This document shows, piece after piece, positions 26,213-51,480 of a DNA stretch of 64,000 nt. Position numbers and translations under genes: made by a program. A model generated the notes under the pieces. It did no database searches, had not been told where the DNA came from, and worked only from the letters and a program-made list of their open reading frames with translations. This DNA comes from a virus: IMG/VR virus record IMGVR_UViG_3300020190_000033, positions 18,227 through 82,226 of that record; one strand, given 5' to 3'. How positions within the stretch are numbered: position 1 is the stretch's first letter; the number at the start of each line of letters is the position of its first letter.

Positions 26213-26638
26213 ATGAGAAGAACCGCTAGTGAAATCTTAAGTGACCTTGAAACCCGCATCGCACGCTTAGAGCGTCACGCTTCCAAGTCCCGTTTCGCTG
26301 ACGATATGTGGGCGGATGACCTTGAGGCGGATGATATGTTCGCTGATGAGATGTTCGCAGGGCGTACTTGGGACGGCAAGGGGAATCAGAAAGACTACAA
26401 CAACCCACCCGCCCCAAAAAATCAAGCAGATTGTTACTCCGCAGACAATTGGGAAGGACTCGGTAAGCCCGGTCAGGGCGAAACCTGTTATCGTCTCCAC
26501 AACAACTACGGCGAAGCCAACTCAGGTAAGCCGGGTTCAGCCGCTAGAAAAGAGTACAACAGGAGATACCGTGAGGAGTGGATGGACTCTGCCTCCATCA
26601 AGAGACCTGAGGGTAAGAGACCAGGCGGTCGTAGATAG
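26213..26638 (+). CDS. Tagged protein: shared N-terminal tag plus acidic repeat, 141 aa
   Basis: Residues 1-25 carry the tag seen on several unrelated proteins here ('MRRTASEILSDLETRIARLE'). Next comes an acidic repeated segment, residues ~29-49, built from 'ADDM/ADDL/ADEM' units, then a Cys/Asn/Gly-rich middle and a basic end ('EGKRPGGRR'). No known fold. AGGAGC precedes the ATG, and the 10-bp palindrome CCTGATCAGG overlaps that site. The tag may direct these proteins to one place, such as the prohead interior (inference). Confidence 0.68.
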   Translation: MRRTASEILSDLETRIARLERHASKSRFADDMWADDLEADDMFADEMFAGRTWDGKGNQKDYNNPPAPKNQADCYSADNWEGLGKPGQGETCYRLHNNYGEANSGKPGSAARKEYNRRYREEWMDSASIKRPEGKRPGGRR

Positions 26639-26640
26639 AG

Positions 26641-26710
26641 TATCCCAAGGGGGTTTCTCCGTTATTAGTTAGGTGTGAGAGATACACACCAACCCCCTCA
26701 GGAGATGATC
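26641..26710 (+). promoter_or_regulatory. Conserved TATCCCAA leader element, copy C, with competing stems
   Basis: TATCCCAA (26641-26648) plus 28 nt ending in GGTGT (26676). Visible pairings: GGTGTG (26672-26677) with CACACC (26685-26690); GGGGGTT (26649-26655) with AACCCCC (26691-26697); TCTCC (26656-26660) with GGAGA (26701-26705), the ribosome-binding site of the gene at 26711. The second and third pairings cross, so they are either mutually exclusive or form a pseudoknot. Confidence 0.62.
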
Positions 26711-26938
26711 ATGCCCAAGCTCTTCATGACCCGCCACAAGCTCCACGGCACCCTCGACCTCACCGTCCACACCGCTCACCACATCAAGCTCCTCAGCATC
26801 CTCCCCCACGCCAAAGTCCTCGTCAAGACCCCGACCACCACGATGCTTACCTTGAAGTACGACTCCTTCAAGGGGAAGGATGGGTCGGAGGAGGTGGTGG
26901 GGGTGTTGCGTGGATACTACGAGATTGTGGAGGGGTGA
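26711..26938 (+). CDS. Unknown small protein, 75 aa
   Basis: The start is set by AGGAGATGATC before the ATG. Basic, His-rich N-terminal half ('MPKLFMTRHKLHGTLDLTVHTAHHIKLL'), then 'YYEIV' near the acidic end. GC content is clearly higher than in the neighbours, with C-rich codons (ctc, acc, gtc) in the first 130 nt, suggesting recent acquisition. It is directly behind leader copy C. No family recognised. Confidence 0.6.
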   Translation: MPKLFMTRHKLHGTLDLTVHTAHHIKLLSILPHAKVLVKTPTTTMLTLKYDSFKGKDGSEEVVGVLRGYYEIVEG

Positions 26939-26958
26939 CCCCCCCTTGGGGATGTTGA

Positions 26959-27324
26959 GTGATAAGGCTCGGTGACTACATCCTTTATGGGAAACACTTA
27001 AAGCTACGCCAAGTCTTGTCTCTGAACACCTTACATGGATATGGGGTGAGTAATGGCGTATGTGTTCCCCTTAAAGATATCTACGCAGTAGTCCCAACCC
27101 TTTATCAGCCACAGACCTTGACTAATGTCAACATACTCGTAAACGGATACCTTCCAATATATCGGCATATATTATTGTGCCTACCACCCTCTACAACGGG
27201 TGACCTAGTAAAGGTTTATATACCCCATGCAGGGGTATTAGAGGGTGTTGTTTCCCATTGGGAGGGAAGCTCAGTTTTTATATTTGAGCTAGTGTCACAC
27301 GCCAAAATAGTTCTCGTAGCGTGA
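26959..27324 (+). CDS. Small paralogous protein, SH3-like?, 121 aa
   Basis: Begins with GTG ('MIRLGDYILYGKHLKLRQVLSL') and shares its N-terminal pattern with the next gene ('MGNIGDFMVWGGNQLRFARILE'): G-D-aromatic-hydrophobic-x-aromatic-G then L-(K/R), and later '(Y/F)A(V/I)(V/L)PT'. The two are tandem paralogs. The G-D-x-V/I start and alternating beta pattern suggest a small SH3-like barrel. The ribosome-binding site is weak (GGGG). Confidence 0.5.
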   Translation: MIRLGDYILYGKHLKLRQVLSLNTLHGYGVSNGVCVPLKDIYAVVPTLYQPQTLTNVNILVNGYLPIYRHILLCLPPSTTGDLVKVYIPHAGVLEGVVSHWEGSSVFIFELVSHAKIVLVA

Positions 27325-27354
27325 ATCTAGTGCAGCACAGAAAGGATAAAAGAG

Positions 27355-27771
27355 ATGGGTAATATTGGAGACTTTATGGTTTGGGGGGGAAATCAACTGA
27401 GGTTTGCCCGCATCCTCGAAAAACACTCACAGGGCTTGTTTTACGGATACTTGAGTGATAATGGCAAAATAAAGTATATAGCCGATCCTTTCGCTATCCT
27501 TCCCACGCACTATGCGGAAATATCCCCAACATCTTCGGATCGTATCATCGTTTGTGGGGATAAAAGTTTCATATACTTGAATTGGGAAGAAGCGAGTGTG
27601 AGTTTTTTCGGTAGCGGGGTATTCGAGATTTACTTTGAGGGCAAATTATATTTGGGGGTTGGCACAGCTTGCCCTCATGCCTTTCGAGGCGTAGAGGGGA
27701 GGAGGAGTTACTTCTTCTTTACTGAGATCAAAACTAATACTCTTTACGCTTTGCCCTCAAGCAAGACCTGA
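27355..27771 (+). CDS. Small paralogous protein, SH3-like?, 138 aa
   Basis: Paralog of the upstream gene (see 'GDFMVWGGNQLRFARILE' and 'PFAILPTHY'). It has AAAGGA upstream of its ATG and looks like all-beta sequence with conserved Gly-Asp and aromatic positions. Function unknown. It ends just ahead of leader copy B. Confidence 0.6.
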   Translation: MGNIGDFMVWGGNQLRFARILEKHSQGLFYGYLSDNGKIKYIADPFAILPTHYAEISPTSSDRIIVCGDKSFIYLNWEEASVSFFGSGVFEIYFEGKLYLGVGTACPHAFRGVEGRRSYFFFTEIKTNTLYALPSSKT

Positions 27772-27808
27772 TAATCCGTAAATGATCCTCGCTTAGGTCT
27801 TATAAGGG

Positions 27809-27878
27809 TATCCCAACCCGAACTATCCTATATTAGTGGGGTGTGAGAGATAGACCCCCCTTAACTAAGGAAATTGAG
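27809..27878 (+). promoter_or_regulatory. Conserved TATCCCAA leader element, copy B
   Basis: TATCCCAA (27809-27816) and 28 nt to GGTGT (27844), with CTATATTAG in between. Downstream, TTAGT (27833-27837) can pair with ACTAA (27864-27868) and GGGGT (27838-27842) with ACCCC (27854-27858), making an 11-nt loop. ACTAA abuts the AAGGA ribosome-binding site of the ligase gene at 27879. The first 14 bases are identical to copy A. Confidence 0.65.
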
Positions 27879-28777
27879 ATGAAGTACCACAAGCCTCAGC
27901 TTGCCAAGACTGCTGACGAGAAGTTCTTATCCGCCTGTAAGGGTAGCCACCTTGTGGTGGCAGAGATGAAACTCGATGGGCATCGCATCATGATTGCCCA
28001 TGATCAGGCATGGTCTCGTATAGGTAAGGAGATCAAGTCGGTGGGGCATATTCAGCTCACTTGCCCGCTGGCTTAATGCTTGACGGGGAGTTGATCCCTC
28101 GGGCAGGGGTGGAGGGTTCCGATGTCGTTTCTCATCTCAGAGCGAATGACCCTGAGGCACTTGAGTTTGTTATCTTTGATGTCCTCTATGTAGAGGGACA
28201 AAGCGTGATGAACCTGCCTTGGTTGGAGAGGCGTAAGATCATTGAGAACCTACCCTCTTTCACCAACACTCGACTTTCTGTTTTGTATCCTCTGTCTCAG
28301 TACACGATTGAGGATTTGATGGCGTTAGCGGCAGATCGAGGGCATGAGGGCATCATGCTCAAAAAGGTTACGGAACCCTACAAGGAGAATAGCCGCTCGG
28401 CTTGGGTGAAGCACAAGTTTACGGATACTCATGATGTGGTCATTGTGGACGCTAATGCCAAGCCCTCAGAATGGCGTGTCCGTCCAGGAGAGATGGGTAC
28501 AGATGGTATCTTGTACCCTCAAGGTCGTCACTCAGACCCTTGGCTTGCAGGTCATGTCGGACTGAGTTATGGATATTATGACCAACAGGGGGTTCTTCGT
28601 GTGGTTGGTTCCCTTGGGGAAACGGGAACGCCTGAAGATATGTCCGCCCATGTTGGAAAAGTTGCAGAGGTTAAGGGTTATGGATTGTATCCCACAGGGG
28701 CTATTCGACACCCTGTGTTCCTCCGCTGGCGTGACGACAAGCTACCTACCGATTGTGTGTTTAACTTCGCCAACTAA
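27879..28777 (+). pseudogene. ATP-dependent DNA ligase, interrupted by a frameshift
   Basis: Seals nicks in DNA using ATP. First frame (27879-28076): adenylation motif I 'EMKLDGHR' with nucleophile Lys31. Second frame (in use by about 28058): 'LPAGLMLDGEL', motif III-like 'LEFVIFDVLY', motif IV 'HEGIMLKKV', motif V 'AWVKHKF', and a C-terminal OB-type part. The fused product would be ~300 aa, a normal small phage ligase. The frame changes by -1 between 28028 and 28073; no strong slippery heptamer is present, though GGGG (28043-28046) and CCC (28064-28066) lie there. It is either a true mutation, a one-base sequencing loss, or less likely recoding. AAGGA precedes the ATG. Confidence 0.8.
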
Positions 28778-28780
28778 CTC

Positions 28781-29162
28781 TTAGTCGCCGTAAACATCCA
28801 ACTCACTTAAATTGCCCATGCGAGGTCTGCCCCTATAGTTAGGGTTCGCATAATGTAAGGGGTCTCCTGTAATATCCTGAACCACCGCAGTCATCTCCTC
28901 CGCTGTCCTAGCCCTTGTATTAAAGGCTTCTTGGAAATTAGCAATGAATTCCTTCTCAGAACAGCGGAATACCATATCTCCGTCTCTGTCGAAGTCGTAC
29001 TGCAAGAAGGTGGCACCATCGAAGTAGTCGTGATATAATCCTACTATATCACCGTAGTACTTACCCGCCGCTGTCCTCGAAGTGGAACCCGCACGCCTTT
29101 CAAGGCGTGCGGGTTCTCATCTCAAGGCTTCTTAAAACTTCACTAGCGGTTCTTCTTATCAT
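28781..29162 (-). pseudogene. Tagged gene broken by a +1 frameshift near its N-terminus
   Basis: From the ATG at 29162 the tag 'MIRRTASEVLRSLEMR' is read, then the frame ends early (TP-stop). Shifting by one base continues the tag normally ('PARLERRAGSTSRTAAGKYYGD') and stays open to the stop at 28781, with 'QYDFDRDGDMVFRCSEKEFIANFQEAFNTRA' in the body. Removing one A from the AGAACCC at the start of the palindrome restores a tag of exactly family length. The intact product would be about 126 aa. A leader nearly identical to other tag genes precedes it. Sequencing error and real decay cannot be separated here. Confidence 0.72.
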
Positions 29163-29205
29163 TATCAAATCTCCAAGGGGGTAATGGATAGGGGTTAATA
29201 GATAA
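29163..29205 (-). promoter_or_regulatory. Conserved leader of a tag gene (short form)
   Basis: Read on the minus strand: ACCCCTATCCATTA, a C-run, then TTGGAGATTT and the ATG. This repeats the 3' part of the leaders at 45740-45804 and 29682-29755 with the same spacing. TTGGAG is the ribosome-binding site. Confidence 0.6.
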
Positions 29206-29234
29206 CTTGTAGGGGTCTCTAGATGACGGATATG

Positions 29235-29681
29235 TTAATCCACTCTGCGACCTTTGATGTCTTTCACAGCAGAGGCAATACCGATAGAAACTTCTGTTCT
29301 GAAATCAGTAGGCACCCCGCCCGATGGGGTGATAACGCAGTCAATCTCTAGCTTCAAGAGACCACCTGAACGAAATTCACCACTTCCCGAAAACGAATTC
29401 CAAGTACCCACCTGAATACTCTTGAACTCAATATCCGCATCGTGATCAAGGTCTACTCTACTCTCCTTCTCAAACTGAGATTGAACTGCCCGCACTACTG
29501 CATTATTTACCCCATCCCCAAAGAATTTAAAAGCGTCGAATTTCATTAGGGATTTCTGTACGACAGGTTCTATACCCTCACCCATCTGAACATAGAACAT
29601 ACCATTACTTGCGGTACGACCTTCGAGGCGAGCAACGCGAGCCTGTAGATGACGGATAACATCAGCAGCACTTCTTCTCAT
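29235..29681 (-). CDS. Tagged protein, 148 aa
   Basis: Residues 1-25 form the recurring tag ('MRRSAADVIRHLQARVARLEG', then 'RTAS'). A 30-bp stretch coding for the end of this tag is identical to the gene at 45805. The body ('MFYVQMGEGIEPVVQKSLMKFDAFKFFGDGVNNAVVRAVQSQFEKESRVDLDHD...') is a soluble alpha/beta domain with a beta-rich end ('LLKLEIDCVITPSGGVPTDFRTEVSIGIASAVKD'). The 45805 protein may share its general layout. Function unknown. Confidence 0.7.
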   Translation of the reverse strand: MRRSAADVIRHLQARVARLEGRTASNGMFYVQMGEGIEPVVQKSLMKFDAFKFFGDGVNNAVVRAVQSQFEKESRVDLDHDADIEFKSIQVGTWNSFSGSGEFRSGGLLKLEIDCVITPSGGVPTDFRTEVSIGIASAVKDIKGRRVD

Positions 29682-29755
29682 GATTGAAACTCCAAGGGAT
29701 TAATGGATAGGGATTTATCCACTCACGCTTGGAGAGAATATAGATAAACTATAAA
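29682..29755 (-). promoter_or_regulatory. Conserved leader of a tag gene (long form)
   Basis: On the minus strand: AGTTTATCTATAT, CTCTCCAAG, 6 nt, TGGATAA, CCCTATCCATTAATCC, then TTGGAG and the ATG. Order and spacing match the plus-strand leader before 45805. GTTTATCTATAT is a plausible -10 type region, but no promoter can be proven by eye. Confidence 0.6.
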
Positions 29756-29784
29756 AGCCTTAAATCTCTAAAGGAGTGTGACAT

Positions 29785-30966
29785 ATGTTCTTTGAGTACG
29801 ACAAGAAGCCGCTGATGAGCTTAGACGAATGTGAAATAAAGGTGGGAGACAGGGTTCAAATTCCACCTAGCTTGTGGGTCGAGATTAGGGAATCGTTTAC
29901 GCAGGAGGCTATTACTGCACATTTGGGAAATGTGATCAAAAGATTGCCCTTTCCAATTAGGGAGTACACGCAACAAGAAATACAAGATGACTTGAACGCA
30001 TTGAGAGCGGAATCCTTGAAATATGAAGTATCTCCTTGGAGCACCCCACGGATAAACACACCAATGAACTTGGTTTATGGTTCTAAGCCTATCTGCCTGA
30101 TAGGAAACAATAGTGGGCTAAAAGTATCCAATATCCAAACTCAGGCTATCCGTATGGAGTGTGGGTTAAAGAAGCAGGGTGCTCCGATGGAAGAATGGAG
30201 GAACGCCCATGCGAAAAAGAGCAACTTCTTTAGATGTCTGTTTGGGATACTTTCAGAGGAAGTGTCAACTAAGGGGATAGAGAACTCGATTTTGTATCGA
30301 GCGTTAAAGATGCACACCTATATGGCGAGTCAGTTTAAGCCTAGCGTAGCGAAATCTATTTATGACCTGTTTGGTGCGAAGAGGGTCTTAGATTTCTCAG
30401 CAGGTTGGGGGGATAGATTGGTTGGGTTCTTGGCTAGTGGGGCGGAGAGTTATGTAGGGATTGATCCGAATACCAAACTGCATGAGCCATATAGACGGAT
30501 ATCGGATAGTGTAGGTGGAACTAAGGCAACGGAGTTTATTTGTTCTCCAGCTGAAGAAGTGAACTATGGGGGCATTTCGTATGATTTTGTGTTTACAAGC
30601 CCGCCATATTTCGACACCGAGAGATACTCGGAAGAACCTACACAAAGTTGGATAAGACACTCCACATTGGATAAATGGTTGAATGGGTTTTTATTTGAGG
30701 TATTGGGCAGGGTCTATGGTGGTCTTGAGGATGGAGGCAGGTTAGCTGTGAATATATCGGATAAGAAAGGCGAGGGAAATATCTGCCAACCGATGTTGGA
30801 GTTTATGGATAAACTAGGTGCGACTTATGAGGGCGTGATTGGATATAAAATGCACAAGAGGAACGGGATAGGTCTTGAGGGGAATTTCTGCGAGCCTGTT
30901 TTTGTTTGGAGCAAGGGGGGAGCCCCTGAGCCGAAATGGATAACCGATAACTTCTTTGGTGTATAG
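29785..30966 (+). CDS. DNA methyltransferase-like protein, 393 aa
   Basis: SAM-dependent methyltransferase. Motif I 'VLDFSAGWGDRLVGFLASGAESYVGIDPN' (from ~Asp203) binds AdoMet, and motif IV 'FVFTSPPYFD' (Thr271-Tyr275) is the TSPPY catalytic signature typical of exocyclic amino methylation (N4-cytosine, less often N6-adenine). The C-terminal 'KKGEGNICQPMLEFMDKLGATYEGVIGY' continues the fold. The N-terminal ~195 residues have no recognised domain and may hold target recognition. AAAGGAG precedes the ATG. No partner restriction gene is nearby, so self-protection of phage DNA is the likely role. Confidence 0.8.
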   Translation: MFFEYDKKPLMSLDECEIKVGDRVQIPPSLWVEIRESFTQEAITAHLGNVIKRLPFPIREYTQQEIQDDLNALRAESLKYEVSPWSTPRINTPMNLVYGSKPICLIGNNSGLKVSNIQTQAIRMECGLKKQGAPMEEWRNAHAKKSNFFRCLFGILSEEVSTKGIENSILYRALKMHTYMASQFKPSVAKSIYDLFGAKRVLDFSAGWGDRLVGFLASGAESYVGIDPNTKLHEPYRRISDSVGGTKATEFICSPAEEVNYGGISYDFVFTSPPYFDTERYSEEPTQSWIRHSTLDKWLNGFLFEVLGRVYGGLEDGGRLAVNISDKKGEGNICQPMLEFMDKLGATYEGVIGYKMHKRNGIGLEGNFCEPVFVWSKGGAPEPKWITDNFFGV

Positions 30967-31011
30967 TCTAGGTGGGCAAACTGAAACCTCTTTGATGTGG
31001 GGTCAAGAAGG

Positions 31012-31074
31012 TATCCCAAGGGGGTGTTCTCCGTATATGTGTGGTGTGGCTACCACACATATGGAGAAGCAAAG
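31012..31074 (+). promoter_or_regulatory. Conserved TATCCCAA leader element, copy D, with strong hairpin over the RBS
   Basis: TATCCCAA (31012-31019) plus 28 nt to GGTGT (31047). A perfect 11-bp inverted repeat, ATATGTGTGGT (31035-31045) and ACCACACATAT (31052-31062), has a 6-nt loop. TTCTCC (31027-31032) can extend the stem by pairing with GGAGAA (31063-31068), the ribosome-binding site of the gene at 31075, leaving only a 2-nt bulge. Confidence 0.7.
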
Positions 31075-31278
31075 ATGATCATAAAGGGACTTGAAGAAAA
31101 GTTTTATGGACTCAATGAGGTTGAGTATTCGCTGAGTAAGCTCGGCTTGACGGAGGCAGGGATTATAGACCTGTGGAATGGGGACTATATTGCCAATCCG
31201 TTTGGGGAGGATTGGTCTTCTCTCAGCAGTTACAAGAAGTGTGCGTTTATGGATAAACTTCTTGACATGGGGGAGTGA
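31075..31278 (+). CDS. Unknown small protein, 67 aa
   Basis: Starts after GGAGAAG and leader copy D. The sequence 'LEEKFYGLNEVEYSLSKLGLTEAGIIDLWNGDYIANPFGEDWSSLSSYKKCAFMDKLLDMGE' looks like a helical, possibly helix-turn-helix-sized, soluble protein. No family recognised. The upstream frame would run through the leader and is not used. Confidence 0.6.
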   Translation: MIIKGLEEKFYGLNEVEYSLSKLGLTEAGIIDLWNGDYIANPFGEDWSSLSSYKKCAFMDKLLDMGE

Positions 31279-31317
31279 GATATAGTAGGGGTGTGGCACA
31301 TAAGTGAGGAAATACCT

Positions 31318-31404
31318 ATGTGTCTACTATATACGCTAATAATTGCCTTTTCTTATGGGATATTCGTAAGGGAGGCGATTAAGCATTATCGTTCTAATGG
31401 GTAG
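31318..31404 (+). CDS. Small membrane peptide, 28 aa
   Basis: An ATG preceded by GAGGAAAT opens a 28-codon frame with a hydrophobic helix at residues 2-19 ('CLLYTLIIAFSYGIFVRE') and a basic end. TATAGTAGGGGTGTGG stands about 20 nt upstream, recalling the downstream half of the TATCCCAA elements. Such one-helix peptides are common in phages, but at this length chance is possible. Confidence 0.4.
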   Translation: MCLLYTLIIAFSYGIFVREAIKHYRSNG

Positions 31405-31416
31405 ATTGTTTATGAT

Positions 31417-31442
31417 GCGTCACCGATGAAAGAAGGTGACGC
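31417..31442 (+). promoter_or_regulatory. Hairpin over the ribosome-binding site of the SWIM gene
   Basis: GCGTCACC (31417-31424) and GGTGACGC (31435-31442) form a perfect 8-bp stem with loop GATGAAAGAA. The AGAAGG ribosome-binding site is split between loop and stem, two bases before the ATG at 31445. Confidence 0.6.
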
Positions 31443-31444
31443 GA

Positions 31445-31825
31445 ATGAGACGGACATCTGCTAAATTAAGTTTAGTCTTAGAGGGATTAGACACGGGTGT
31501 GGTGTCTAATTCAGAGGGTTTAGTCGCTTCGGTGGTGGGTTCTTTTGAAGAACAGCTAAAGAAGTCTCCCATAACCTTTAAGGTGGGGGATTACGAGGTG
31601 GTGGTGGAAGCGTTTGATGGGGAGGGCAGGGAATTGGATATCCATCTAAGGTGTAGTTGTAATTATTGGCAGTATCAGGGACCTGAGTATCACGCACAAA
31701 AAAATGGATACTTGTTTGGTAAACCTAGGGGAACGGCGAGCAAGCCTGATTCAAAAGACCCTAAGGGGAGCCACAAGGTGTGTAAACACGCCTATGCGGT
31801 TTTATCTACCTATTTTGGAGTGTGA
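31445..31825 (+). CDS. SWIM-type zinc-finger protein with tag-like N-terminus, 126 aa
   Basis: Residues 70-72 'C-S-C' and 113-115 'C-K-H' give the CxC...CxH pattern of SWIM domains, which bind zinc and often contact DNA or protein. The spacing region contains 'NYWQYQGPEYHAQ' and 'YLFGKPRGTASKPDSKDPKG', a combination I associate with phage-specific members. The first residues, 'MRRTSAKLSL', resemble the shared tag but lack its second half. The start at 31445 is chosen over a GTG at 31436. A hairpin covers the ribosome-binding site. Confidence 0.72.
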   Translation: MRRTSAKLSLVLEGLDTGVVSNSEGLVASVVGSFEEQLKKSPITFKVGDYEVVVEAFDGEGRELDIHLRCSCNYWQYQGPEYHAQKNGYLFGKPRGTASKPDSKDPKGSHKVCKHAYAVLSTYFGV

Positions 31826-31827
31826 CG

Positions 31828-32208
31828 ATGCCGACCTATGATTTTCTCTGTAGTTCCTGTGAAAACCGCTTTACCAAATCGCTGAGGATGTCAGAGCGAG
31901 ATCAGGAGACAAGATGTCCTGATTGTGAAGCTGTGGGTAAGAGAGTTCCTTCGCTACCTCAGTTTATCCTTGTTGGGGATGGTTGGACGGGTAAAAACTT
32001 GAAGATAAAGCAACAGATGGCGGAAAAGAACTCGAAGCTAGAGATGAGGCAAAACGAGATGAAGCGTGATGCACCATCAGTCACACTAGCTCCAAATGTG
32101 GATGGGGAGAGGGTGGATAGTTGGGCTGATGCTCAAAAGCTGGCGGCATCAAAGGGAAAAAACGCAGACAGCTACAACACACTAGTGCAGAAAGAGAAGG
32201 TTAAGTAA
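31828..32208 (+). CDS. FmdB-like zinc-ribbon protein, 126 aa
   Basis: 'PTYDFLCSSCENRFTKSLRMSE' then 'TRCPDCEAVGKRVPS' is the two CxxC zinc ribbon of the FmdB/regulatory-protein family at residues ~8-32. The rest is basic and helical ('KNLKIKQQMAEKNSKLEMRQNEMKRD'). GGAG is well placed for the ATG at 31828; the GTG at 31822 is too close. It overlaps the next gene by 1 nt (TAATG). Transcription or assembly regulation is possible; the function of phage members is unknown. Confidence 0.7.
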   Translation: MPTYDFLCSSCENRFTKSLRMSERDQETRCPDCEAVGKRVPSLPQFILVGDGWTGKNLKIKQQMAEKNSKLEMRQNEMKRDAPSVTLAPNVDGERVDSWADAQKLAASKGKNADSYNTLVQKEKVK

Positions 32209-32918: not shown

Positions 32919-32923
32919 TAATA

Positions 32924-32977
32924 GTTTCTTTATATTGAGGTGCAGTATTGTAGATACCCCCCCAATAGGAGAGAAAC
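32924..32977 (+). promoter_or_regulatory. Nested inverted repeats bracketing a ribosome-binding site
   Basis: GTTTCT (32924-32929) pairs with AGAAAC (32972-32977), and TATTG (32933-32937) with CAATA (32963-32967). AGGAGA lies between the right arms, immediately before the ATG at 32979. The stems are short and the interior long, so this is weaker than the other leader hairpins. Confidence 0.35.
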
Positions 32978-32978
32978 G

Positions 32979-33686: not shown

Positions 33687-33696
33687 GGAGTCCATC

Positions 33697-34395: not shown

Positions 34396-34406
34396 GGATA
34401 AAACCC

Positions 34407-35072: not shown

Positions 35073-35073
35073 G

Positions 35074-35298: not shown

Positions 35299-35309
35299 GG
35301 ATTGGATAA

Positions 35310-35573: not shown

Positions 35574-35574
35574 A

Positions 35575-36030: not shown

Positions 36031-36372
36031 ATGAAAGTAAAAGCTGAACTTGTCCGTATCGCCCAAGAAAACCCCAAACTCCGCTCGATCATCATTCCTG
36101 TGGTGAAGAGCAACGATGTCCAAAAGATGATCCATCTTGCCAAAGCTATTTTGGCGGAGGAAGAAGCTAAGGCTGAGGAGCTTAAGGCTGAGGAGCTTAA
36201 GGCTGAGGAGCCTAAGGCTGAGGAGCCTAAGGCTGAGGAGCCTAAGGCTAAGGAGCCTAAGGCTGAGAAAAAGGCATCAGAGAATACTCTCCGCAAGCAG
36301 ATTATCCGTTTAGCTTCAGAGAGACCTGAGCTTAGGGAAGTTCTTATTCCCCTGTTGAAGGCTAATAAGTAA
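36031..36372 (+). CDS. Repeat protein with duplicated helical motif and KAEE linker, 113 aa
   Basis: Two copies of one motif flank a charged linker: residues ~7-28 'LVRIAQENPKLRSIIIPVVKSN' shortened as (L/I)(V/I)R(I/L)A-x-E-x-P-x-LR-x3-IP-x2-K, and residues ~91-112 'IRLASERPELREVLIPLLKAN'. Between them (46-80) lie seven near-identical five-residue units, KAEE(L/P). I have met the LR-x-x-(L/I)-(L/I)-P-L-L-K pattern in large-phage proteins of unknown role. It may tether two partners through a stiff helix. CGGAGA lies upstream; the stop overlaps the next ATG. Confidence 0.65.
   Translation: MKVKAELVRIAQENPKLRSIIIPVVKSNDVQKMIHLAKAILAEEEAKAEELKAEELKAEEPKAEEPKAEEPKAKEPKAEKKASENTLRKQIIRLASERPELREVLIPLLKANK
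36166..36270 (+). repeat. 15-bp tandem repeats coding for KAEE(L/P)
   Basis: About seven copies of AAGGCTGAGGAGC(C/T)T stand head to tail inside the 36031 gene. Copies differ by single bases, so copy number probably changes by slippage or recombination. Confidence 0.85.
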
Positions 36373-36692: not shown

Positions 36693-36709
36693 GTTTATCC
36701 CTTTTTAAC

Positions 36710-36736: not shown

Positions 36737-36745
36737 AGAATGAAG

Positions 36746-37111: not shown

Positions 37112-37114
37112 GTC

Positions 37115-38829: not shown

Positions 38830-38838
38830 GGAGTTGAG

Positions 38839-39628: not shown

Positions 39629-39630
39629 TA

Positions 39631-39673
39631 ATCCATTTATCACTTCAGCTTATGTGGGAGGTGATATATGGAT
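39631..39673 (+). promoter_or_regulatory. Long hairpin enclosing RBS and start codon
   Basis: ATCCATTTATCACTT (39631-39645) pairs with AGGTGATATATGGAT (39659-39673) with one mismatch and one wobble. The right arm contains both part of the GGGAGGTGAT ribosome-binding site and the ATG at 39668, so the folded form should block initiation. Confidence 0.65.
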
Positions 39674-40126
39674 ATAAACGAACGCCTGAAGATGCTTCAT
39701 ATGAGAATAGCTGCACTTGAGGCTAATGCCCCAAGTGCAGAGAGCCATTTCTTTGATAACCCTCAACACAAGGGAGTGAGGGAGTTCGGAGAGTCTGAAG
39801 CTATTTCAAATAGCCCTGAAACAGCGACCAAAGCGGTCAAGAACTCGGACGCTCCCGACCGAGGTGTGGCGAAAGCTAAAAAAGAGAGTCTGCTTGCTCC
39901 ACCTCCACCCGAGGAAGTTCTCGAAATTCAACCTGGAGCAAATCAGTTTTCGACACTCAGTCAGCTTTTAGTCGAAACAAAAGAACCCATAAAGGGGGTT
40001 CCCCAAGGTTATGAGGATATGCCCAAGGCAACGCCAATCAAACCAACAAGCGAGAAAACCCACAAAGAAGAGAAACAAGAAGCAGTCCAAAAGATGATGA
40101 GGAGACTAGGCTATGGCCTCCGTTAA
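39668..40126 (+). CDS. Coiled-coil/linker protein with tag-like N-terminus, 152 aa
   Basis: The first ~20 residues ('MDINERLKMLHMRIAALEAN') resemble the second half of the shared tag (L-x-x-R-I/V-A-x-L-E). The remainder is Pro/Glu/Lys-rich and probably disordered ('LLAPPPPEEVLEIQPG'), ending in a basic helix ('QKMMRRLGYGLR'). It overlaps the next gene by 14 nt. A scaffolding or tethering role is conceivable; no family recognised. Confidence 0.55.
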   Translation: MDINERLKMLHMRIAALEANAPSAESHFFDNPQHKGVREFGESEAISNSPETATKAVKNSDAPDRGVAKAKKESLLAPPPPEEVLEIQPGANQFSTLSQLLVETKEPIKGVPQGYEDMPKATPIKPTSEKTHKEEKQEAVQKMMRRLGYGLR

Positions 40127-40676
40127 TCTTAACAAAACATCGGACGATATAGACGCACACTTTGTGGGGGATAAGTTCCCCGTCGTAGCTGGTCCTATCC
40201 TTAGAGCCACTAAGTGGAAGGCAGGGCTGTTTGTCCGTTATGTAGAAGATGAGATAGAAACAAACAACTTTACGGTGGAACAATCTAATGGCAGGGAAGT
40301 TGTTGGATTTCTCTTGTTTGGGAGCGAAGATTACGCTGATGCAAGACAATCCAATTTCCGTAACTTTACATCTTATCAAAACACATCTGCACTTGCCTCT
40401 TCTAGCGGCTCGGCTACACTAACCATGATCAGCGGAGGAGCTAGATACCTGTTCAAAAACTTTGAAACTATTGCCCTTGATGCAGGAGGGGTTCGTCAAG
40501 GTGGGGCTATCACATACAACCTTAATGAACCCCTTAAAATATCCGAAAACGGACTTCTTTGTAATGACCCTGATGATCGTCTATCTCTTGCGATAGGTGG
40601 CGATCCGATTGTGGTAGGCTTCTGCTCCAAGAAGCCAGGTATAGATGGCAAGTTGGGTATTGACCTTAAGTTCTAG
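40113..40676 (+). CDS. Virion-type protein, 187 aa
   Basis: Beta-rich sequence with 'VGDKFPVVAGPILRATKWKAGLFVRYVEDEI' and 'VVGFLLFGSEDYADARQSNFRNFTSYQ', ending in 'LSLAIGGDPIVVGFCSKKPG'. It looks like a structural or decoration protein. It overlaps the preceding gene and converges with the HTH gene at 40666 (11-nt overlap). Confidence 0.58.
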   Translation: MASVNLNKTSDDIDAHFVGDKFPVVAGPILRATKWKAGLFVRYVEDEIETNNFTVEQSNGREVVGFLLFGSEDYADARQSNFRNFTSYQNTSALASSSGSATLTMISGGARYLFKNFETIALDAGGVRQGGAITYNLNEPLKISENGLLCNDPDDRLSLAIGGDPIVVGFCSKKPGIDGKLGIDLKF

Positions 40677-40971
40677 CCTTAAGTCTATTACGGATAGTTC
40701 GATCACAAACACCAAACCATGATCCTATCCGTCTGTAGTCCCAACCCAATGATCTCAATCTATCGACCTCGCTCAAGTCGATGGGGGTCATCTTTCTGTT
40801 CTTGCTGTGTCCTTGTTTGCGTAACTTACAACCCGCTTCTATTAGCCTATTACGGATAGTGTTCGAGGAAACTCCATAACGCTTCGCTAGGATACTAAAG
40901 CTGTCTCCCTGCTCATAAGCCTCTACAATCTGTGCGACAGGCAATGAAATCACAGCTTCCCCTCCAACCAA
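40666..40971 (-). CDS. Double helix-turn-helix DNA-binding protein, 101 aa
   Basis: Two HTH units are visible: 'PVAQIVEAYEQGDSFSILAKRYGVSSNTIRNRLIEAG' and 'LSEVDRLRSLGWDYRRIGSWFGVCDRTIRNRLKA', each ending in the recognition-helix phrase T-I-R-N-R-L. This is the bipartite HTH of transposases and homing endonuclease DNA-binding parts. It overlaps the HNH gene by 22 nt on the same strand and may supply its site specificity (inference). Confidence 0.7.
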   Translation of the reverse strand: MVGGEAVISLPVAQIVEAYEQGDSFSILAKRYGVSSNTIRNRLIEAGCKLRKQGHSKNRKMTPIDLSEVDRLRSLGWDYRRIGSWFGVCDRTIRNRLKART

Positions 40972-41390
40972 CTCAGGTCAAGTATCCATTTCTTACCTGA
41001 TCTTTCGCTCCATACCTTAAAGACATTTTGTACTAGCTTTTCCATATCTTCCACGGATAGTCCGTTTACAATGGCTAGGTGGGTCATGACGGAGACAACA
41101 TCTACCTTAAGGGCGAGCGTTCTACCTAAGTGTTTTGCCTTGTGGCAGAGCGGACACAAGGCAATAAGTCCCTCTAGCTTTTGGATATTCTTTTGGTCGT
41201 CATAAGACCAAATCTCATGACACTCGACAGGGTGTGTTGATCCTTTGCCGCCACACACCTCACAAACATAACCTGCCTTCTTGTAACACTCTTTCCGCAG
41301 TTTATCCCAACTTGATTTGGATAGATTGGCTTCATCTCTTAGGTTGTTCCCCCAACTTGATTTGGGGACAAGTTCTATATTCAGCTTCAT
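40950..41390 (-). CDS. HNH endonuclease, 146 aa
   Basis: Zinc-bound HNH motif: 'GYVCEVCGGKG' (Cys43, Cys46), 'VECHEIWSYDD' (His58) and 'LIALCPLCHKAKHLG' (Cys79, Cys82, His87). The N-terminus has the family's repeated 'PKSSWGNNLRD/SKSSWDKLRK'. It is a nicking or cutting endonuclease of the phage homing type. It sits with the HTH gene on the minus strand between plus-strand genes, consistent with a mobile insertion. Confidence 0.75.
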   Translation of the reverse strand: MKLNIELVPKSSWGNNLRDEANLSKSSWDKLRKECYKKAGYVCEVCGGKGSTHPVECHEIWSYDDQKNIQKLEGLIALCPLCHKAKHLGRTLALKVDVVSVMTHLAIVNGLSVEDMEKLVQNVFKVWSERSGKKWILDLSWLEGKL

Positions 41391-41772
41391 GGGATTAAGA
41401 CTCCTCCTTCAGGGCGGTAGTATCTTACTTATAACTATCCAATTTACGGAGCAAAGATTGAACCTACTAAGGCACACCAAGTTTAGGCTCAAGGCTGATA
41501 TGGAGTTTATCACCACGGCTGAGATGGGCGATCTTCATGTGATTCTTCTACAGGATGAAACCGATCACCTTAGCGTGAAGTCACAGGACTTACTTACACG
41601 CAAAGAAATGGATTTATCTGTGTCGCATCTTAAGGAGAAGTTTATTTACACAGGTTGCCCTGCTAACCTGCGTTACCTGATGGACTTTATCCGTCATGAG
41701 GGGCAGGAACCCTGCTCTCAATCGGATAAGTTCGCATTAGCGACTCAGTTAGAGTCGCTGTGGGTCAAGTAA
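41389..41772 (+). CDS. Unknown protein, up to 127 aa
   Basis: The C-terminal ~65 residues ('LSVSHLKEKFIYTGCPANLRYLMDFIRHEGQEPCSQSDKFALATQLESLWVK') look real. The start is unclear: the ATG at 41389 overlaps the HNH start and has no ribosome-binding site, and an ATG at 41500 is an alternative. It lies between divergent and convergent minus-strand genes. No family recognised. Confidence 0.5.
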   Translation: MGLRLLLQGGSILLITIQFTEQRLNLLRHTKFRLKADMEFITTAEMGDLHVILLQDETDHLSVKSQDLLTRKEMDLSVSHLKEKFIYTGCPANLRYLMDFIRHEGQEPCSQSDKFALATQLESLWVK

Positions 41773-41944
41773 GAGAGTATCCCTTACTGAGGTAAAGGAC
41801 AACCAAGTCCTCAATATCATCCTCCTTGATTGGCTTGATGGTGATTTTCCCCTTGCTCAAGTCGCCAATCATCATGTCTATGTGACCATCCTCCATCGAC
41901 ATAAATGACACCCATTGCCCACCCTTCTTTAACCGAATATCCAT
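41765..41944 (-). CDS. Small protein, 59 aa
   Basis: AAGGAG stands before the ATG at 41944, which is preferred over much longer upstream readings that are low-complexity. 'MDIRLKKGGQWVSFMSMEDGHIDMMIGDLSKGKITIKPIKEDDIEDLVVLYLSKGYSLT' is a compact alpha/beta sequence. Function unknown. Confidence 0.58.
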   Translation of the reverse strand: MDIRLKKGGQWVSFMSMEDGHIDMMIGDLSKGKITIKPIKEDDIEDLVVLYLSKGYSLT

Positions 41945-41981
41945 CTTAGTACTCCTTGTGAGTGACACGCTACTAATAATG

Positions 41982-42158
41982 GATAAACCGATATGGGATA
42001 CGAACATGACGGAAAAAAAGACGAAGAGAGAAGAAAAGAAGCTGAAGTACCTAGCCAAGTTAGAACAGCTAAGGGAAAAGGAAAGATTGTTATTGGAGTA
42101 TCTAGCTTGGCTAGAGAGGAATAACCCACCAATCATCAAAGGCACCGATGTCGATTAG
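41982..42158 (+). CDS. Small coiled-coil protein, 58 aa
   Basis: Strongly helical and charged ('KTKREEKKLKYLAKLEQLREKERLLLEYLAWLERN'), predicted coiled coil over residues ~10-45. Starts at a GTG (~41958) and ATGs at 41982 and 42006 are all possible, none with a strong ribosome-binding site. It overlaps the 3' end of the GIY-YIG-like gene by 48 nt. Real coding is likely from composition but not certain. Confidence 0.42.
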   Translation, partial: DKPIWDTNMTEKKTKREEKKLKYLAKLEQLREKERLLLEYLAWLERNNPPIIKGTDVD

Positions 42159-42461
42159 TTCATAGATGTCATCGGGGATATAAGAGACGCAATCATGGGA
42201 GAACCATTCTCCGCTGAGACGGAAATCTTTTAGATGTTCATGTAGGTAGCGTTCTCTCCACGCCCAACCCTGAAAGAAGGCTATGAGACGCAGTTCTTCG
42301 CCATTCCCTGTTTGTAGTTCTCGTATGCGTTTATGTGGGTCTTTAGCCCGACCTATTTTGATGTGTCCCGTCTTATGAGATTGGATAAAATAAAGGTAGT
42401 CAGAGCCTTTTTTTTGAATTTGTCTTTGTAGGTGCAGGGATTTTAGGATATTTGAGTCCAT
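42111..42461 (-). CDS. GIY-YIG/T5orf172-like protein, 116 aa
   Basis: 'SDYLYFIQSHKTGHIKIGRAKDPHKRIRELQTGNGEELRLIAFFQG' followed by 'RERYLHEHLKDFRLSGEWF' matches the T5orf172/MUG113 branch of the GIY-YIG nuclease superfamily: a Y-x-Y...I-K-I-G core, a catalytic-type Arg in 'KRIREL' and the E-x-x-(L/H) helix. Nuclease activity is possible, but many members are uncharacterised. It is downstream of the replicative helicase on the same strand. Confidence 0.7.
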   Translation of the reverse strand: MDSNILKSLHLQRQIQKKGSDYLYFIQSHKTGHIKIGRAKDPHKRIRELQTGNGEELRLIAFFQGWAWRERYLHEHLKDFRLSGEWFSHDCVSYIPDDIYELIDIGAFDDWWVIPL

Positions 42462-42464
42462 GCT

Positions 42465-44015
42465 TCAGAGGTCTTCCATGAGGTCTTCGAGGGGGTCTTT
42501 TTCTTTCTTAGAGGATTTGGGATTGGGCTTTTGATTATTTTTAGGTTTAGGGGAAGATTGAAACTGAAGGGGCATATCGAGGATACGCCCATAAGGCCAG
42601 GCGACCTGAGCTTCAAACTCTTCAAATGGAGCTTGATCACGAGACTTCAGACATTGGTATTTGATGCAGGACTTTTCCTTCATATCATCACCGAACCAAT
42701 TGGAGATGACCACATCTGCGGAGCGTTCGGCTTCGTTTGCATAGCTAAGGTGTGTGAGGTTGTAAGAACCACCATTCTTCTCTGCGGCTTTATAACCTTC
42801 ACGGCTAATCTGAAACAGACAAAGGATAGGGACACCTTCTCCTTTGTTGAAACCCAAAGCGGTCTTCTTCAGATCACGGATAACTTCATTCAATCTATCC
42901 GTAGTACTCGACACCCATTTACGAGGAGAGAGCAAAAGGGCATGGTCAACCACGATCATTTTAACAGGTTCGCTTTGTGCCAAAATCTCTGCTTTTGTGC
43001 GGAGGTTTTCCACCGTGAAATCGAGCGTGTTGGGATCAGCTACCTCAAAACGGATACTGCCGTAAATACCCTCTTTAACACCCTGATCAAGGTCTTGCGT
43101 AACATCACGCAAAAACGCTTCTTCATCAGGGGTCAATAAGCCCGTCTTGATGCGTTGAGGGTCTATTCCTACATCAGGGTTCTGCGTCTGTTGGATACCT
43201 AGAGCCATGCGTTTTGCTCTAAATTTGGGGTGCATGGAGTGGTAGATGTACAACATTCTACGACATTGATTGTAGTGCATCTCAAGCGAAAAATATATCG
43301 TGTTTGTTCCACCATATACGGCTTGGTTATAAACCCAATTCATAGCTGATGTGGACTTCATGTGTCCTGTAAACGCGGCTAGTATATACAATTCCTTCTT
43401 TCTAAACCCACCCAATGCAGAGTCAATAATGGATAGTCCTGTAATGGGTAGTTTTTCGACCTTTACATCTTTGGCTCTCTGATATTCCTCCCAAAAGTCA
43501 GCACTATCTGATAGAGCTTCCCCACCGAGACTTCCACCAAAAGTCGGCGTATTAATTTTCCCTATCTCAGATACAAGGAAGTTGCTTGCATCTCTAGCCC
43601 CTTTCAGGAGCCTTTTCTTCTTCCCCCCATCTTCTTTCACCTCTAGCCCCGACTTGGCGATGGTTTTAGCTTCTGCCATAGCTGTAGCTAGTTGTACTTG
43701 TCGAGCCTCCTCCACCTTACGCTCCACCTCCAACATAAAGTCCCCTCTATACAAAGGGGCGGAAGTGGCTAACTGCGTGACCTTATCTACTTCATCAAAG
43801 CCTTGATTGGCATTGAAGTGATCAATAAGTGTCTCTTGTGTGGGCAGATGCCCATGTATCCGTACAAAGGTTTGGATAAAATCATAAATATTGGTCTCGG
43901 CAGGGTCGGGGAAAACATAAATGCTTCCCCTGAGAGAACAATAGCTCTGAAACATCAGATTAGTGTCGTCCCCAACTCTTGGGTCGGGAAGGATACTTCT
44001 TAAGATTTTACTCAC
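42465..44015 (-). CDS. DnaB-like replicative helicase, 516 aa
   Basis: RecA-fold hexameric helicase unwinding DNA at the fork. Seen: 'ITGLSIIDSALGGFRKKELYILAAFTGHMKST' leads into the P-loop (Gly217-His-Met-Lys220-Ser221-Thr222), 'TIYFSLEMHYNQCRRML' (motif H1a-like, Glu), 'KMIVVDHALLL' (Walker B, Asp357) and 'VPILCLFQISREGY' (H3). The P-loop is unusual because Met replaces the glycine that normally precedes the lysine. An N-terminal domain of ~185 residues fits helicase/primase contacts. The C-terminal ~35 residues are Pro/Lys/Asp-rich and disordered. It overlaps the upstream loader-like gene by 4 nt. Confidence 0.82.
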   Translation of the reverse strand: MSKILRSILPDPRVGDDTNLMFQSYCSLRGSIYVFPDPAETNIYDFIQTFVRIHGHLPTQETLIDHFNANQGFDEVDKVTQLATSAPLYRGDFMLEVERKVEEARQVQLATAMAEAKTIAKSGLEVKEDGGKKKRLLKGARDASNFLVSEIGKINTPTFGGSLGGEALSDSADFWEEYQRAKDVKVEKLPITGLSIIDSALGGFRKKELYILAAFTGHMKSTSAMNWVYNQAVYGGTNTIYFSLEMHYNQCRRMLYIYHSMHPKFRAKRMALGIQQTQNPDVGIDPQRIKTGLLTPDEEAFLRDVTQDLDQGVKEGIYGSIRFEVADPNTLDFTVENLRTKAEILAQSEPVKMIVVDHALLLSPRKWVSSTTDRLNEVIRDLKKTALGFNKGEGVPILCLFQISREGYKAAEKNGGSYNLTHLSYANEAERSADVVISNWFGDDMKEKSCIKYQCLKSRDQAPFEEFEAQVAWPYGRILDMPLQFQSSPKPKNNQKPNPKSSKKEKDPLEDLMEDL

Positions 44016-44734
44016 GATAACCGCACTCTCTTATGTGTCGCCTCAGGTAAAGCATAAGTGCTAGCCGAGGGCTCATTGGATAACCCCTGTACCCTTGTGG
44101 TTGGGGTTATCTGCTCATTGATGCTTAAACGAATCCGTTCCCATCCACTTATAGTATCCTCCACAGCACGGCTCCATGAGAGATGTCCCTCTTGAAGGGG
44201 CTTCGTGGGCTCTTCTACTATCCAAGTCGGCTTGTGTAAATGATTACGCAACTCAATTGTCTCGACTAACACCTCTGACATTGCAGAGTTCCTTGCCCTT
44301 TTCACACCCAAACGGATAATAAGTAAATGCGGACTCTCAGCTAAGTCCTCAAGGGAAGAAACCATCAAGTCCCTTTTGTAATCGGGATCGGCTATCTCTG
44401 AAGAGTTTAAATTCGCTAACCAAGCTGACATAAGCGTAGCATCATTTACTACCTTCACAAACGCTTGTGGTTTACGCCAATCAGCAAGCGATGACCTAAG
44501 TGATACCTGCAACGCGGGTATCTCGGCATTGATCAACAAACACTCATCTATCTTGCCGCACAACATAGATTTCTTTTTGATCGGAACCTTGGATAAGTTC
44601 GTCCACGCCTTTTCCGCTTGTTGATCTAATGCCCTATTGAACACACACTCGCATTGGATAGCCCTTGGTATCCCATAAGCCCCCTCTTCGGTTTGTGTGT
44701 ATCCAAAACCATTACACTTCTTACAAGTCGTCAT
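44012..44734 (-). CDS. Zinc-ribbon protein, possible degenerate DnaC-type helicase loader, 240 aa
   Basis: The N-terminal 'CKKCNGFGY...AIQCEC' is a four-cysteine knuckle, as found in some phage and Gram-positive DnaC/DnaI-type loaders. A later stretch 'HLLIIRLGVKRARNSAMSEVLVETIELRNHLHKPTWIVEEP' has the layout of the Walker B and sensor region of DnaC-like AAA+ proteins, but no P-loop is present. Position immediately upstream of the helicase, with a 4-nt overlap, supports a loader or helicase-partner role. Loss of ATP binding is an inference from the missing P-loop. Confidence 0.58.
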   Translation of the reverse strand: MTTCKKCNGFGYTQTEEGAYGIPRAIQCECVFNRALDQQAEKAWTNLSKVPIKKKSMLCGKIDECLLINAEIPALQVSLRSSLADWRKPQAFVKVVNDATLMSAWLANLNSSEIADPDYKRDLMVSSLEDLAESPHLLIIRLGVKRARNSAMSEVLVETIELRNHLHKPTWIVEEPTKPLQEGHLSWSRAVEDTISGWERIRLSINEQITPTTRVQGLSNEPSASTYALPEATHKRVRLS

Positions 44735-44811
44735 CTACGCCTCCTTTTGTGCGTGTCCCTTCGCTTCATTATAGACCTACACCCCACCTGCTCTATCATT
44801 TATCGCTCCCT

Positions 44812-44913
44812 ACCAAAAGATCATTATTTTTCTTCTTGCCGAATAGATACCCCCCATACCTTTTGCGATAGTTTATTTATATCCCCTCCAAGTCATCAAT
44901 GGATAACCCTTAT
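44812..44913 (+). repeat. 102-bp direct repeat, copy 1 (leader of the 44927 gene)
   Basis: This block recurs at 45678-45779 with about 2 mismatches. It contains AAAAGATCATTATTTTTC, CCGAATAGATACCCCCCATACC, GTTTATTTATAT and CCCTCCAAGTCATCAATGG (shown in parts). It ends 13 nt before the ATG of the 44927 gene. On the minus strand the octamer TATAAATA occurs at 44874-44881, 140 nt upstream of the 44734 gene. Confidence 0.85.
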
Positions 44914-44926
44914 GGAGACCAGGATC

Positions 44927-45661
44927 ATGATAAGAAGAACCAAGATGTTTAGAACCGCATCCTCATCAGATTTTACTGCTATTGGCTATGGGTCAGACGC
45001 TCGGTCTGTATTCCGTGAACTTGTACAAGATGCTCAAGATGACTATGGTAGCGGCGGAAATACGGGAACTATTGCTGAAAAGGATAGCTATAAGATAGTT
45101 GCGGAGCCTATGACTCAAGCCCAAGCATATAAATACGCAGATCAACATATAAGTGAATATGACAAGTATGGTCCCGCAGGTTGTATTCCCATAGTTGAAT
45201 CAAAGGTTGTTGCACAGAAAGAATTTGAGGTTAAAGTTAAAGCAAAGACTAGAGAGGAGGCAATGAATATTGTTTCAGAACAGCTCAAAACGGGGCAAAA
45301 GCGAGCTGGCACCACAATAGAAGTTAATTTTACTAATGTTACTATGACAACACCCGCAAGCAAAGGAACAGTTGATGGGTCGCCATCAACTGTTGGCACC
45401 AAATACATGATTGAGGGGTGGGAGGCACATCCAAGGAAGTTTTCGACAAAGCGAGAAGCTATTGAACATTATATGGCGTTTGCGGGAAGCCCAAGTTGGG
45501 ATAATAGACCTTGTACCTTAGTGAAGGTGGAATCGCTAACTGTATTATCTTATGTGCCTTCGGCTAAACTCCCTACTTTTACTTTAAAAGGAAAAAGGGT
45601 TCAAGTCATCTTAGATACAAAAATTAAGGGGTTTTTGTTCTTTGGTTGGGCAGCAGATTAA
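44927..45661 (+). CDS. Large-phage conserved-type protein with tag-like start, 244 aa
   Basis: The N-terminus 'MIRRTKMFRTASSSDFTAIGYGSDAR' is followed by 'FRELVQDAQDDYGSGGNTGTIAEKDSYKIV' and 'ISEYDKYGPAGCIPI', a combination I recall from many small proteins of large phages. The C-terminal part is an alpha/beta domain ('KEFEVKVKAKTREEAMNIVSEQLK', 'SYVPSAKLPTFTLKGKRVQVILDTKIKGFLFFGWAAD'). The start is set by the shared leader and GGAG. The first residues copy the 'MIRRT' of the tag genes. Function unknown. Confidence 0.68.
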   Translation: MIRRTKMFRTASSSDFTAIGYGSDARSVFRELVQDAQDDYGSGGNTGTIAEKDSYKIVAEPMTQAQAYKYADQHISEYDKYGPAGCIPIVESKVVAQKEFEVKVKAKTREEAMNIVSEQLKTGQKRAGTTIEVNFTNVTMTTPASKGTVDGSPSTVGTKYMIEGWEAHPRKFSTKREAIEHYMAFAGSPSWDNRPCTLVKVESLTVLSYVPSAKLPTFTLKGKRVQVILDTKIKGFLFFGWAAD

Positions 45662-45679
45662 GTGCTGTTTATGCAGCAC
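45662..45679 (+). terminator. Hairpin after the 44927 gene, possible terminator
   Basis: GTGCTG and CAGCAC form a perfect 6-bp stem with loop TTTATG directly after the stop codon. No T-run follows immediately, so termination efficiency is doubtful; it could also be the upstream edge of the duplicated leader. Confidence 0.35.
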
Positions 45680-45779
45680 CAAAAGATCATTATTTTTCTT
45701 CTTGCCGAATAGATACCCCCCATACCTTTTGCGATTGTTTATTTATATCCCCTCCAAGTCATCAATGGATAACCCCTAT
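45678..45779 (+). repeat. 102-bp direct repeat, copy 2 (leader of the 45805 gene)
   Basis: Second copy of the block at 44812-44913, offset 866 bp. Immediately downstream the conserved tag-gene leader continues: CCCTATCCATTAATCC, TTTGGAG and the ATG at 45805. The duplication therefore carries a whole promoter and leader region. Confidence 0.85.
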
Positions 45780-45804
45780 CCATTAATCCTTTGGAGATTT
45801 GATC

Positions 45805-46242
45805 ATGATCAGAAGAACTGCAAGTGAAGTTCTAAGAAGCCTTGAGGCTCGCGTTGCTCGCCTCGAAGGTCGTACTGCCAGCCGCAGAACTGCTTTCGGT
45901 AAGAGTGTCTATAAAGGCAAATACGGGGCGATGCTTTATATCACTCAGGTTTCAAAACTTATGGCGGAGCAATGGAATATCTTACACCCTGAGGACTTCG
46001 TAAGCGGTCGTCAGATTGAAAGCCTTTTTTCAAAGTATATTGACAGCCGTGTCAAAGTTCAGTTGTTTGACATCGCTATTCTTGAAGGAAGGTATACAGC
46101 CACAGGTGATGCTGGGCTTGAAGTTACATTTGAGCCGGATTTATATGATATGCCTCAATTGCCAGGGAGGCAGAAATTTACACTAAGTTATGAGATGGAT
46201 AGAGGGGATATTATGGGCAGCCTAGAAATTCGACCCGCTTAG
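45805..46242 (+). CDS. Tagged protein, 145 aa
   Basis: The clearest copy of the tag: 'RRTASEVLRSLEARVARLE' then 'GRTASRRTA'. The body ('VYKGKYGAMLYITQVSKLMAEQWNILHPEDFVSGRQIESLFSKYIDSRVKVQLFDIAILEG...LEVTFEPDLYDMPQLPG') is an alpha/beta domain ending in strands, similar in size to that of the 29235 protein. The ATG at 45805 follows TTTGGAG. Function unknown. Confidence 0.7.
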   Translation: MIRRTASEVLRSLEARVARLEGRTASRRTAFGKSVYKGKYGAMLYITQVSKLMAEQWNILHPEDFVSGRQIESLFSKYIDSRVKVQLFDIAILEGRYTATGDAGLEVTFEPDLYDMPQLPGRQKFTLSYEMDRGDIMGSLEIRPA

Positions 46243-51464: not shown

Positions 51465-51480
51465 ATGGGAGGTTTGACAA

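Follow-up and report, generated by a model that had tools for sequence, protein, structure and literature searches.

In phage T4, propeptides of 10-19 residues target non-conserved internal proteins to the prohead core and are removed by the head protease (PMC9026906), while in SPN3US and phiKZ the prohead protease removes the N-terminal regions of packaged head proteins, two of which are only 20 and 24 residues long, with a preference for serine after the cut (PMC10052503). Against this background we analyzed a recurrent tag of about 24 residues that begins otherwise dissimilar proteins in a 64,000-nucleotide stretch of viral DNA, hereafter the window, corresponding to bases 18227-82226 of the 82,226-base IMG/VR virus record IMGVR_UViG_3300020190_000033. 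The phage is tailed, with a long tail and baseplate-type genes, and a longer record of 108,527 bases (G001) is near-identical to that of the window. The tag has the consensus M(I)RR[TS]ASE[IV][IL]xxLExR[IV]ARLE[RK]xA[S] and forms, on the evidence presented below, a coiled coil that probably acts as a capsid-targeting, or head-packaging, signal trimmed by the head protease.

The strong copies in the window, with profile scores of 28-51 bits, are MRRTASEILSDLETRIARLERHAS at 26213 (+), MRRSAADVIRHLQARVARLEGRTAS at 29681 (-), MIRRTASEVLRSLEARVARLEGRTAS at 45805 (+) and MIRRTASEVLRSLEMRTRTP followed by a stop at 29162 (-), which bear out the common start that the first-pass annotation had seen in three proteins and one broken gene. 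The first copy occupies residues 1-24 (26213-26284) of a 141-residue protein (26213..26638, + strand), the body of which combines an acidic ADDLEADDMFADEMFAG stretch with a small Cys-containing domain and the relatives of which, G011_185540 and G030_212878, are tagged too. (Acidic stretches of the ADDLEADDMFADEMFAG type are common to this family and a scaffold-like head protein, found at 50555-52096 of G011 and at 212036 of G030.) The second forms residues 1-25 (29607-29681) of a protein of 148 residues (29235..29681, - strand), preceded by the promoter-like motif TAGTTTATCTATA at 29739..29751 on the same strand, and the third forms residues 1-26 (45805-45882) of a protein of 145 residues (45805..46242, + strand). 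The broken copy is a truncated gene of 20 codons (29100..29162, - strand).

Extending the profile search to related phages, as the first-pass annotation had proposed, revealed the tag far beyond the window: all 34 of the 34 source records were matched together with about 18 further ones, making about 50 IMG/VR records overall. Matches per record reached 33 in a record of 375,691 bases and 20, 17, 14, 14 and 13 in others, and in the huge-phage genome G011 about 30 of the roughly 500 genes are tagged. A degenerate DNA pattern of 60 bases (ATG-RRTA...L[EQ]xR...RLE) matched 48 stretches among viral contigs, while a slightly looser pattern had no match in 257 Gb of GTDB prokaryote genomes. The tag varies by lineage, being of the type MRR[ST]ASE in G011 and G021, MRTASEVLRSLEARIARLEGRTAS in G030, MIRRTASEVLRSLEARVARLEGRT in the window's own group and MRHLTASQKIAQLESRIARLEKQA in G031; copies from one genome resemble each other more than they do those from other genomes (excess identity 0.14 versus a permutation maximum of 0.08). 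Two weak profile matches in G042 and G047 were discarded as an internal coil (ELEARVAELE). Comparison of 117 members with Pfam and PHROGs returned no recurrent family, and a literature search for the string MRRTASE found nothing. No tagged cultured phage emerged from tblastn searches of INPHARED with the tag and with whole tagged proteins, in which the 26-residue query was possibly masked as low complexity, and no tag was found in LR745208 or in the cultivated phage Tunturi_5, both searched for it.

The bodies attached to the tag were said by the first-pass annotation not to resemble each other, and this proved true on a much larger scale, since 174 distinct tagged proteins stripped of the tag fall into 120 unrelated clusters, of which 91 are singletons. 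They are small (median 161 residues) and nearly all orphans, with confident Pfam assignments limited to pentapeptide-repeat and WGR domains and mostly unknowns among PHROGs. Moreover, the same body may be tagged or untagged depending on the phage: the WGR-domain protein is tagged in G011 and G021 and untagged in G031, and comparable pairs are G030_214384 with G011_149082 and the window protein at 44927 with the tagged L163_4691, while in G031_76942 a different N-terminal helix stands where the tag would be. With few exceptions the tag forms the very N-terminus; in four proteins it is C-terminal, including a zincin-like protein of 410 residues and a protein of 142 residues. (Large proteins with an HExxH-like zincin signature are encoded at 19200-20858 of the window, 1068-2993 of L054, 72288-74183 of G011 and 4629-5858 of L177, and one relative carries the tag at its C-terminus.)

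Of the 163 tags examined, 161 have the signature of trimeric coiled coils, R-[ILVM]-x-x-[ILV]-E, versus 1 of 163 control windows. Reading the heptad from the alignment places A5 (d), position 9 (a), L12 (d), position 16 (a) and L19 (d) in the core, so that R15-h-x-x-L19-E20 coincides with Arg(g)-h(a)-x-x-h(d)-Glu(e), the trimerisation motif of parallel three-stranded coils that is also found in some dimers (PMC3653964). When the tag profile was compared with PDB sequences, the leading matches, weak in E-value, were variants of GCN4, including 2o7h (HLENRVARLEK), and coronin-1. AlphaFold2 models of monomers, obtained from single sequences and of low confidence, present the tag as a separate helix bounded by its flanking motifs, at residues 6-26 in the 45805 protein and at residues 5-20, followed by the body, in the 29235 protein; a Foldseek search with the latter model gave no significant match. 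The coiled-coil nature of the tag is thus established at the sequence level, and a trimeric, parallel arrangement is predicted. Of the fallback considered in the first-pass annotation, namely a mere coiled coil of paralogous proteins, the coil is retained and the paralogy is lost, given that the bodies are unrelated.

Such a coil could in principle be a portable oligomerisation module that trimerises or mixes proteins, whether inside infected cells or on the surface of virions, and has no part in packaging. The near-invariance of the R-h-x-x-h-E signature and the PDB matches to trimeric coils are in line with this, as are the retention of the coil across all tag types while its flanking sites vary and the tolerance of C-terminal placement. 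Yet one coil on about 30 co-expressed proteins would lead to indiscriminate mixing, which is odd for specific oligomerisation, and the module would leave unexplained both the promoter-like motif common to virion operons and the head-protein motif at the ends of the coil that are described below; we thus regard it as unlikely.

The upstream DNA raises another alternative, in which promoter, leader, ribosome site and first codons recombine as a mobile regulatory cassette and the tag is a near-functionless passenger, much as in the promoter/stem-loop cassettes of T4-type phages. Within the window, a leader of 102 nucleotides stands once before gene 44927 (copy 1, 44812..44913, + strand, holding TAGTTTATTTATA at 44869-44881) and once before gene 45805 (copy 2, 45678..45779, + strand, with the promoter-like motif at 45735-45747), and the two copies are 98% identical. 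The truncated tag gene is followed by a strong, perfect hairpin (29085..29116, - strand; -32.4 kcal/mol, z -8.5), which overlaps its end and extends past it; in addition, the first seven codons are 80% identical in DNA within G011, and the greater likeness of tags within genomes would also follow from copying. However, codons 8-21 of the G011 copies show only 45% identity at third positions versus 78% at first and second positions, indicating selection on the protein beyond a copied DNA cassette. C-terminal tags exist without the leader and the tag is conserved across phages of different lineages, so that a passenger role appears distinctly improbable.

Most tagged genes have the promoter-like motif TAGTTTnTTTATA about 50-80 nucleotides upstream. 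In G011, the genome on whose tagged genes the motif was defined, it precedes 22 of 30 tagged versus 40 of 473 untagged genes (P 7e-16), and the corresponding figures are 8/12 versus 28/289 in G021, 9/15 versus 10/351 in G030 and 4/5 versus 6/132 in G001. Among the untagged genes that share the motif are the one that opens the head operon, the one immediately before the major capsid gene (in G021 and G030), the start of the portal region, baseplate-type genes and the homologue of the Tunturi_5 virion protein gp329; none of the helicase genes inspected has it upstream. We infer from these associations that TAGTTTnTTTATA is a late promoter. (The motif also lies upstream of a protein, at 3378-3764 of L054, that by eye only resembles S-adenosylmethionine decarboxylase.)

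The tag starts with R-x-A-S and often ends with [RK]-x-A-S, and this motif recurs in the head proteins. The genes of G011 include those for a portal, for a major head protein that matches phrog_2522 (2e-51) and for a head maturation protease that matches phrog_18299 (5e-14). Counted against the expectation from shuffled sequences, [RK]xAS is strongly enriched in the head operons of four genomes (observed/expected 14/2.2, 9/1.9, 12/2.1 and 17/1.2) and in the terminase-adjacent protein (9/1.1, 10/1.2, 10/0.7 and 8/0.7), whereas tail and fibre proteins of five genomes remain at chance level (9/8.1, 5/5.1, 10/7.9, 7/6.2 and 5/3.5). When all motifs built as class-x-residue-residue are ranked for head proteins, it comes out first, with 89 occurrences versus 10.8 expected, the runner-up having 13 versus 1.1. 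Neither the major head protein nor the protein next to it has such a site, and the acidic scaffold-like protein has 3-9. In the head maturation protease of four genomes the sites occur at residue 25 and near residue 270 with none across the catalytic stretch, a placement on both sides of the catalytic domain that is as expected for self-processing. The head region of LR745208 is likewise enriched (31/11.2) while three other regions of it are near chance, and in Tunturi_5 the DNA ejection protein (5/0.9) and a DarB-like protein (5/0.86) stand out from the large tail proteins, which have 0-1 sites. Where [RK]xAS occurs in untagged proteins it is concentrated in the first 30 residues.

In the tags of MRR type, [RK]xAS flanks the coil on the N-terminal side in 109 of 125 cases; right after the coil the strict form is found in 41 of 125, versus 4 of 122 in a control window, and a looser form in 73 of 125. 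Two C-terminal tags have the motif between body and coil (RRSAS and RLAS). The simplest reading is that [RK]xAS would be the recognition site of the head protease. A basophilic kinase recognizing R-x-x-S is a less likely explanation, because the sites lie on either side of the protease domain and are missing from the shell proteins. Cleavage motifs of the T4 and phiKZ/SPN3US types were sought in the tag by eye and were not convincing. (A second portable motif containing [RK]xAS, RVASRYMKA, is found in G011 (L085-L104) near either end of several proteins, N-terminally in those at 11335, 15198, 71020, 91902, 97191, 203249, 261617 and 276239 and towards the C-terminus in those at 53586, 257901 and 271122; in a stricter count it never falls at residues 41-72.)

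A basic amphipathic helix common to many proteins would fit any receptor, and could therefore direct its carriers to another compartment or assembly built by the phage, such as a phage nucleus, a membrane-bound prohead site or the nucleoid. The promoter motif, common to virion genes, and the motif of head proteins at the ends of the tag point instead to the head (no search was aimed at phage-nucleus genes), making such destinations highly improbable; for the tether to the nucleoid that the first-pass annotation had offered as an option, no finding speaks. Its other suggestion, targeting to the prohead in the manner of T4, gains indirect support from the promoter-like motif of virion operons, from the [RK]xAS sites in head core proteins and around the protease and from the T4-like small orphan bodies.

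On the capsid-targeting reading, small unrelated proteins bearing the tag at the N-terminus, or occasionally at the C-terminus, would be made together with the virion proteins, and during assembly their coil would join a coil of the prohead core, or the coils of other tags. The head maturation protease would then cut at the [RK]xAS motifs beside the coil and release the bodies within the capsid, from where they would pass along with the DNA into the next host. The counts of flanking sites, together with the C-terminal tags having a site between body and coil, suggest that the rear site would release an N-terminally tagged body and the front site a C-terminally tagged one. What the sequences show directly is the tag with its portability and coiled-coil signature, its association with the promoter-like motif and the bias of [RK]xAS toward head proteins; the entry of tagged proteins into the head and their injection are what we infer.

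Several points weigh against this reading. The tagged phages are uncultured, packaging and cleavage being deduced from sequence, and no partner coil has been identified in the head core. LR745208 lacks the tag even though its protease and terminase are 42% and 61% identical. The strict post-coil site is found in only a third of MRR-type tags, and the G031-type tag (MRHLTASQKIAxLExRIARLEK) is without the strict N-flanking site and mostly without a C-flanking one. As the [RK]xAS motif was noticed through the tag, only the contrast between head and tail proteins tests it independently, and the head-protein sets compared are homologous among the genomes. Similarly, the promoter-like motif was derived from the tagged genes of G011, so that it is better tested by the structural genes and by the genomes other than G011.

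We tentatively go one step further, with less assurance than for capsid targeting itself, and propose that a clade of huge phages employs a modular label, [RK]xAS-coil-[RK]xAS, which at either end of a protein may load about 30 proteins per head, to be released by the protease and injected at infection. If true, this would in effect be a delivery signal carried by the virion, with a large range of interchangeable cargoes, and a new, coil-based packaging signal, widening to dozens of cargoes per genome a capsid-targeting principle whose best-known examples are a few T4 proteins. It would also offer a sequence-only way to spot the packaged and delivered orphan genes of uncultured huge phages, a class normally invisible without proteomics, and the motif predicts a cleavage rule for a family of head proteases that includes that of the cultivated Tunturi_5.

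The partial forms of the tag listed by the first-pass annotation proved to be of unequal standing. The protein at 44927..45661 (+ strand), starting with the degenerate tag MIRRTKMFRTASSS, is a homologue of the truly tagged L163_4691 that retains RRTKMFRTAS and the duplicated leader and lacks the helix. By contrast, the N-terminal coil MDINERLKMLHMRIAALE of the protein at 39668..40126 (+ strand) is related to the tag in style at most, as a coil is intrinsic to its whole family (RIASLMRRVAELE in other phages), and the candidate at 31445 was rejected because its orthologues in other phages start alike with the non-coil M[RK][RK]SSAxLxxI. Elsewhere in the window, the protein at 36031-36372 contains AEELK/AEEPK tandem repeats of 15 nucleotides with, on either side, a copy of a RIAQENPKLRSIIIPVVK-type motif, which also begins a protein of 350 residues in G001, and that at 48396-48887 has a KAWPVAWSIYCKYKEPNSPSCKK stretch followed by NKKAS and resembles another recurrent phage motif. 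In a 375-kb relative, the terminase (L085 3258-7343, - strand) is split by an intein that contains a LAGLIDADG domain.

Among known systems, coronin-1 and the trimeric GCN4 variants resemble the tag in heptad register and in having the Arg(g)-h-x-x-h-Glu(e) signature (PMC3653964; PDB matches), but theirs are oligomerisation segments of single proteins, whereas the tag is found on more than 100 unrelated ones. The Dar antirestriction proteins of P1 are head-associated and counter host defence (PMC12810830). A likeness to them lies in the [RK]xAS sites of the DarB-like protein of the related phage Tunturi_5. To our knowledge, no tag of this kind is present in P1. The processing in SPN3US differs in its AxE motif and in its propeptides, most of which are long and do not constitute one portable tag. 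The closest parallel is T4, whose capsid-targeting sequence is likewise a short N-terminal element on otherwise divergent small proteins (here 174 proteins in 120 body clusters), and the layout is the same: an N-terminal tag, a head-protein motif at the tag ends, a promoter motif of virion genes and non-conserved bodies. Yet there is no evident sequence similarity between the two, the tag here being a coiled coil with R-h-x-x-h-E, and the candidate cut motif [RK]xAS is unlike that of T4 gp21. The gp21 protease family PF03420 had no match in 17 records, in a search without positive control, and the head protease here, matching phrog_18299, belongs to a different family as far as tested. Finally, about 30 cargoes per genome contrast with a few in T4, and the tag here may also be C-terminal, so that its resemblance to the T4 capsid-targeting sequence is best described as an analogy rather than a demonstrated homology.

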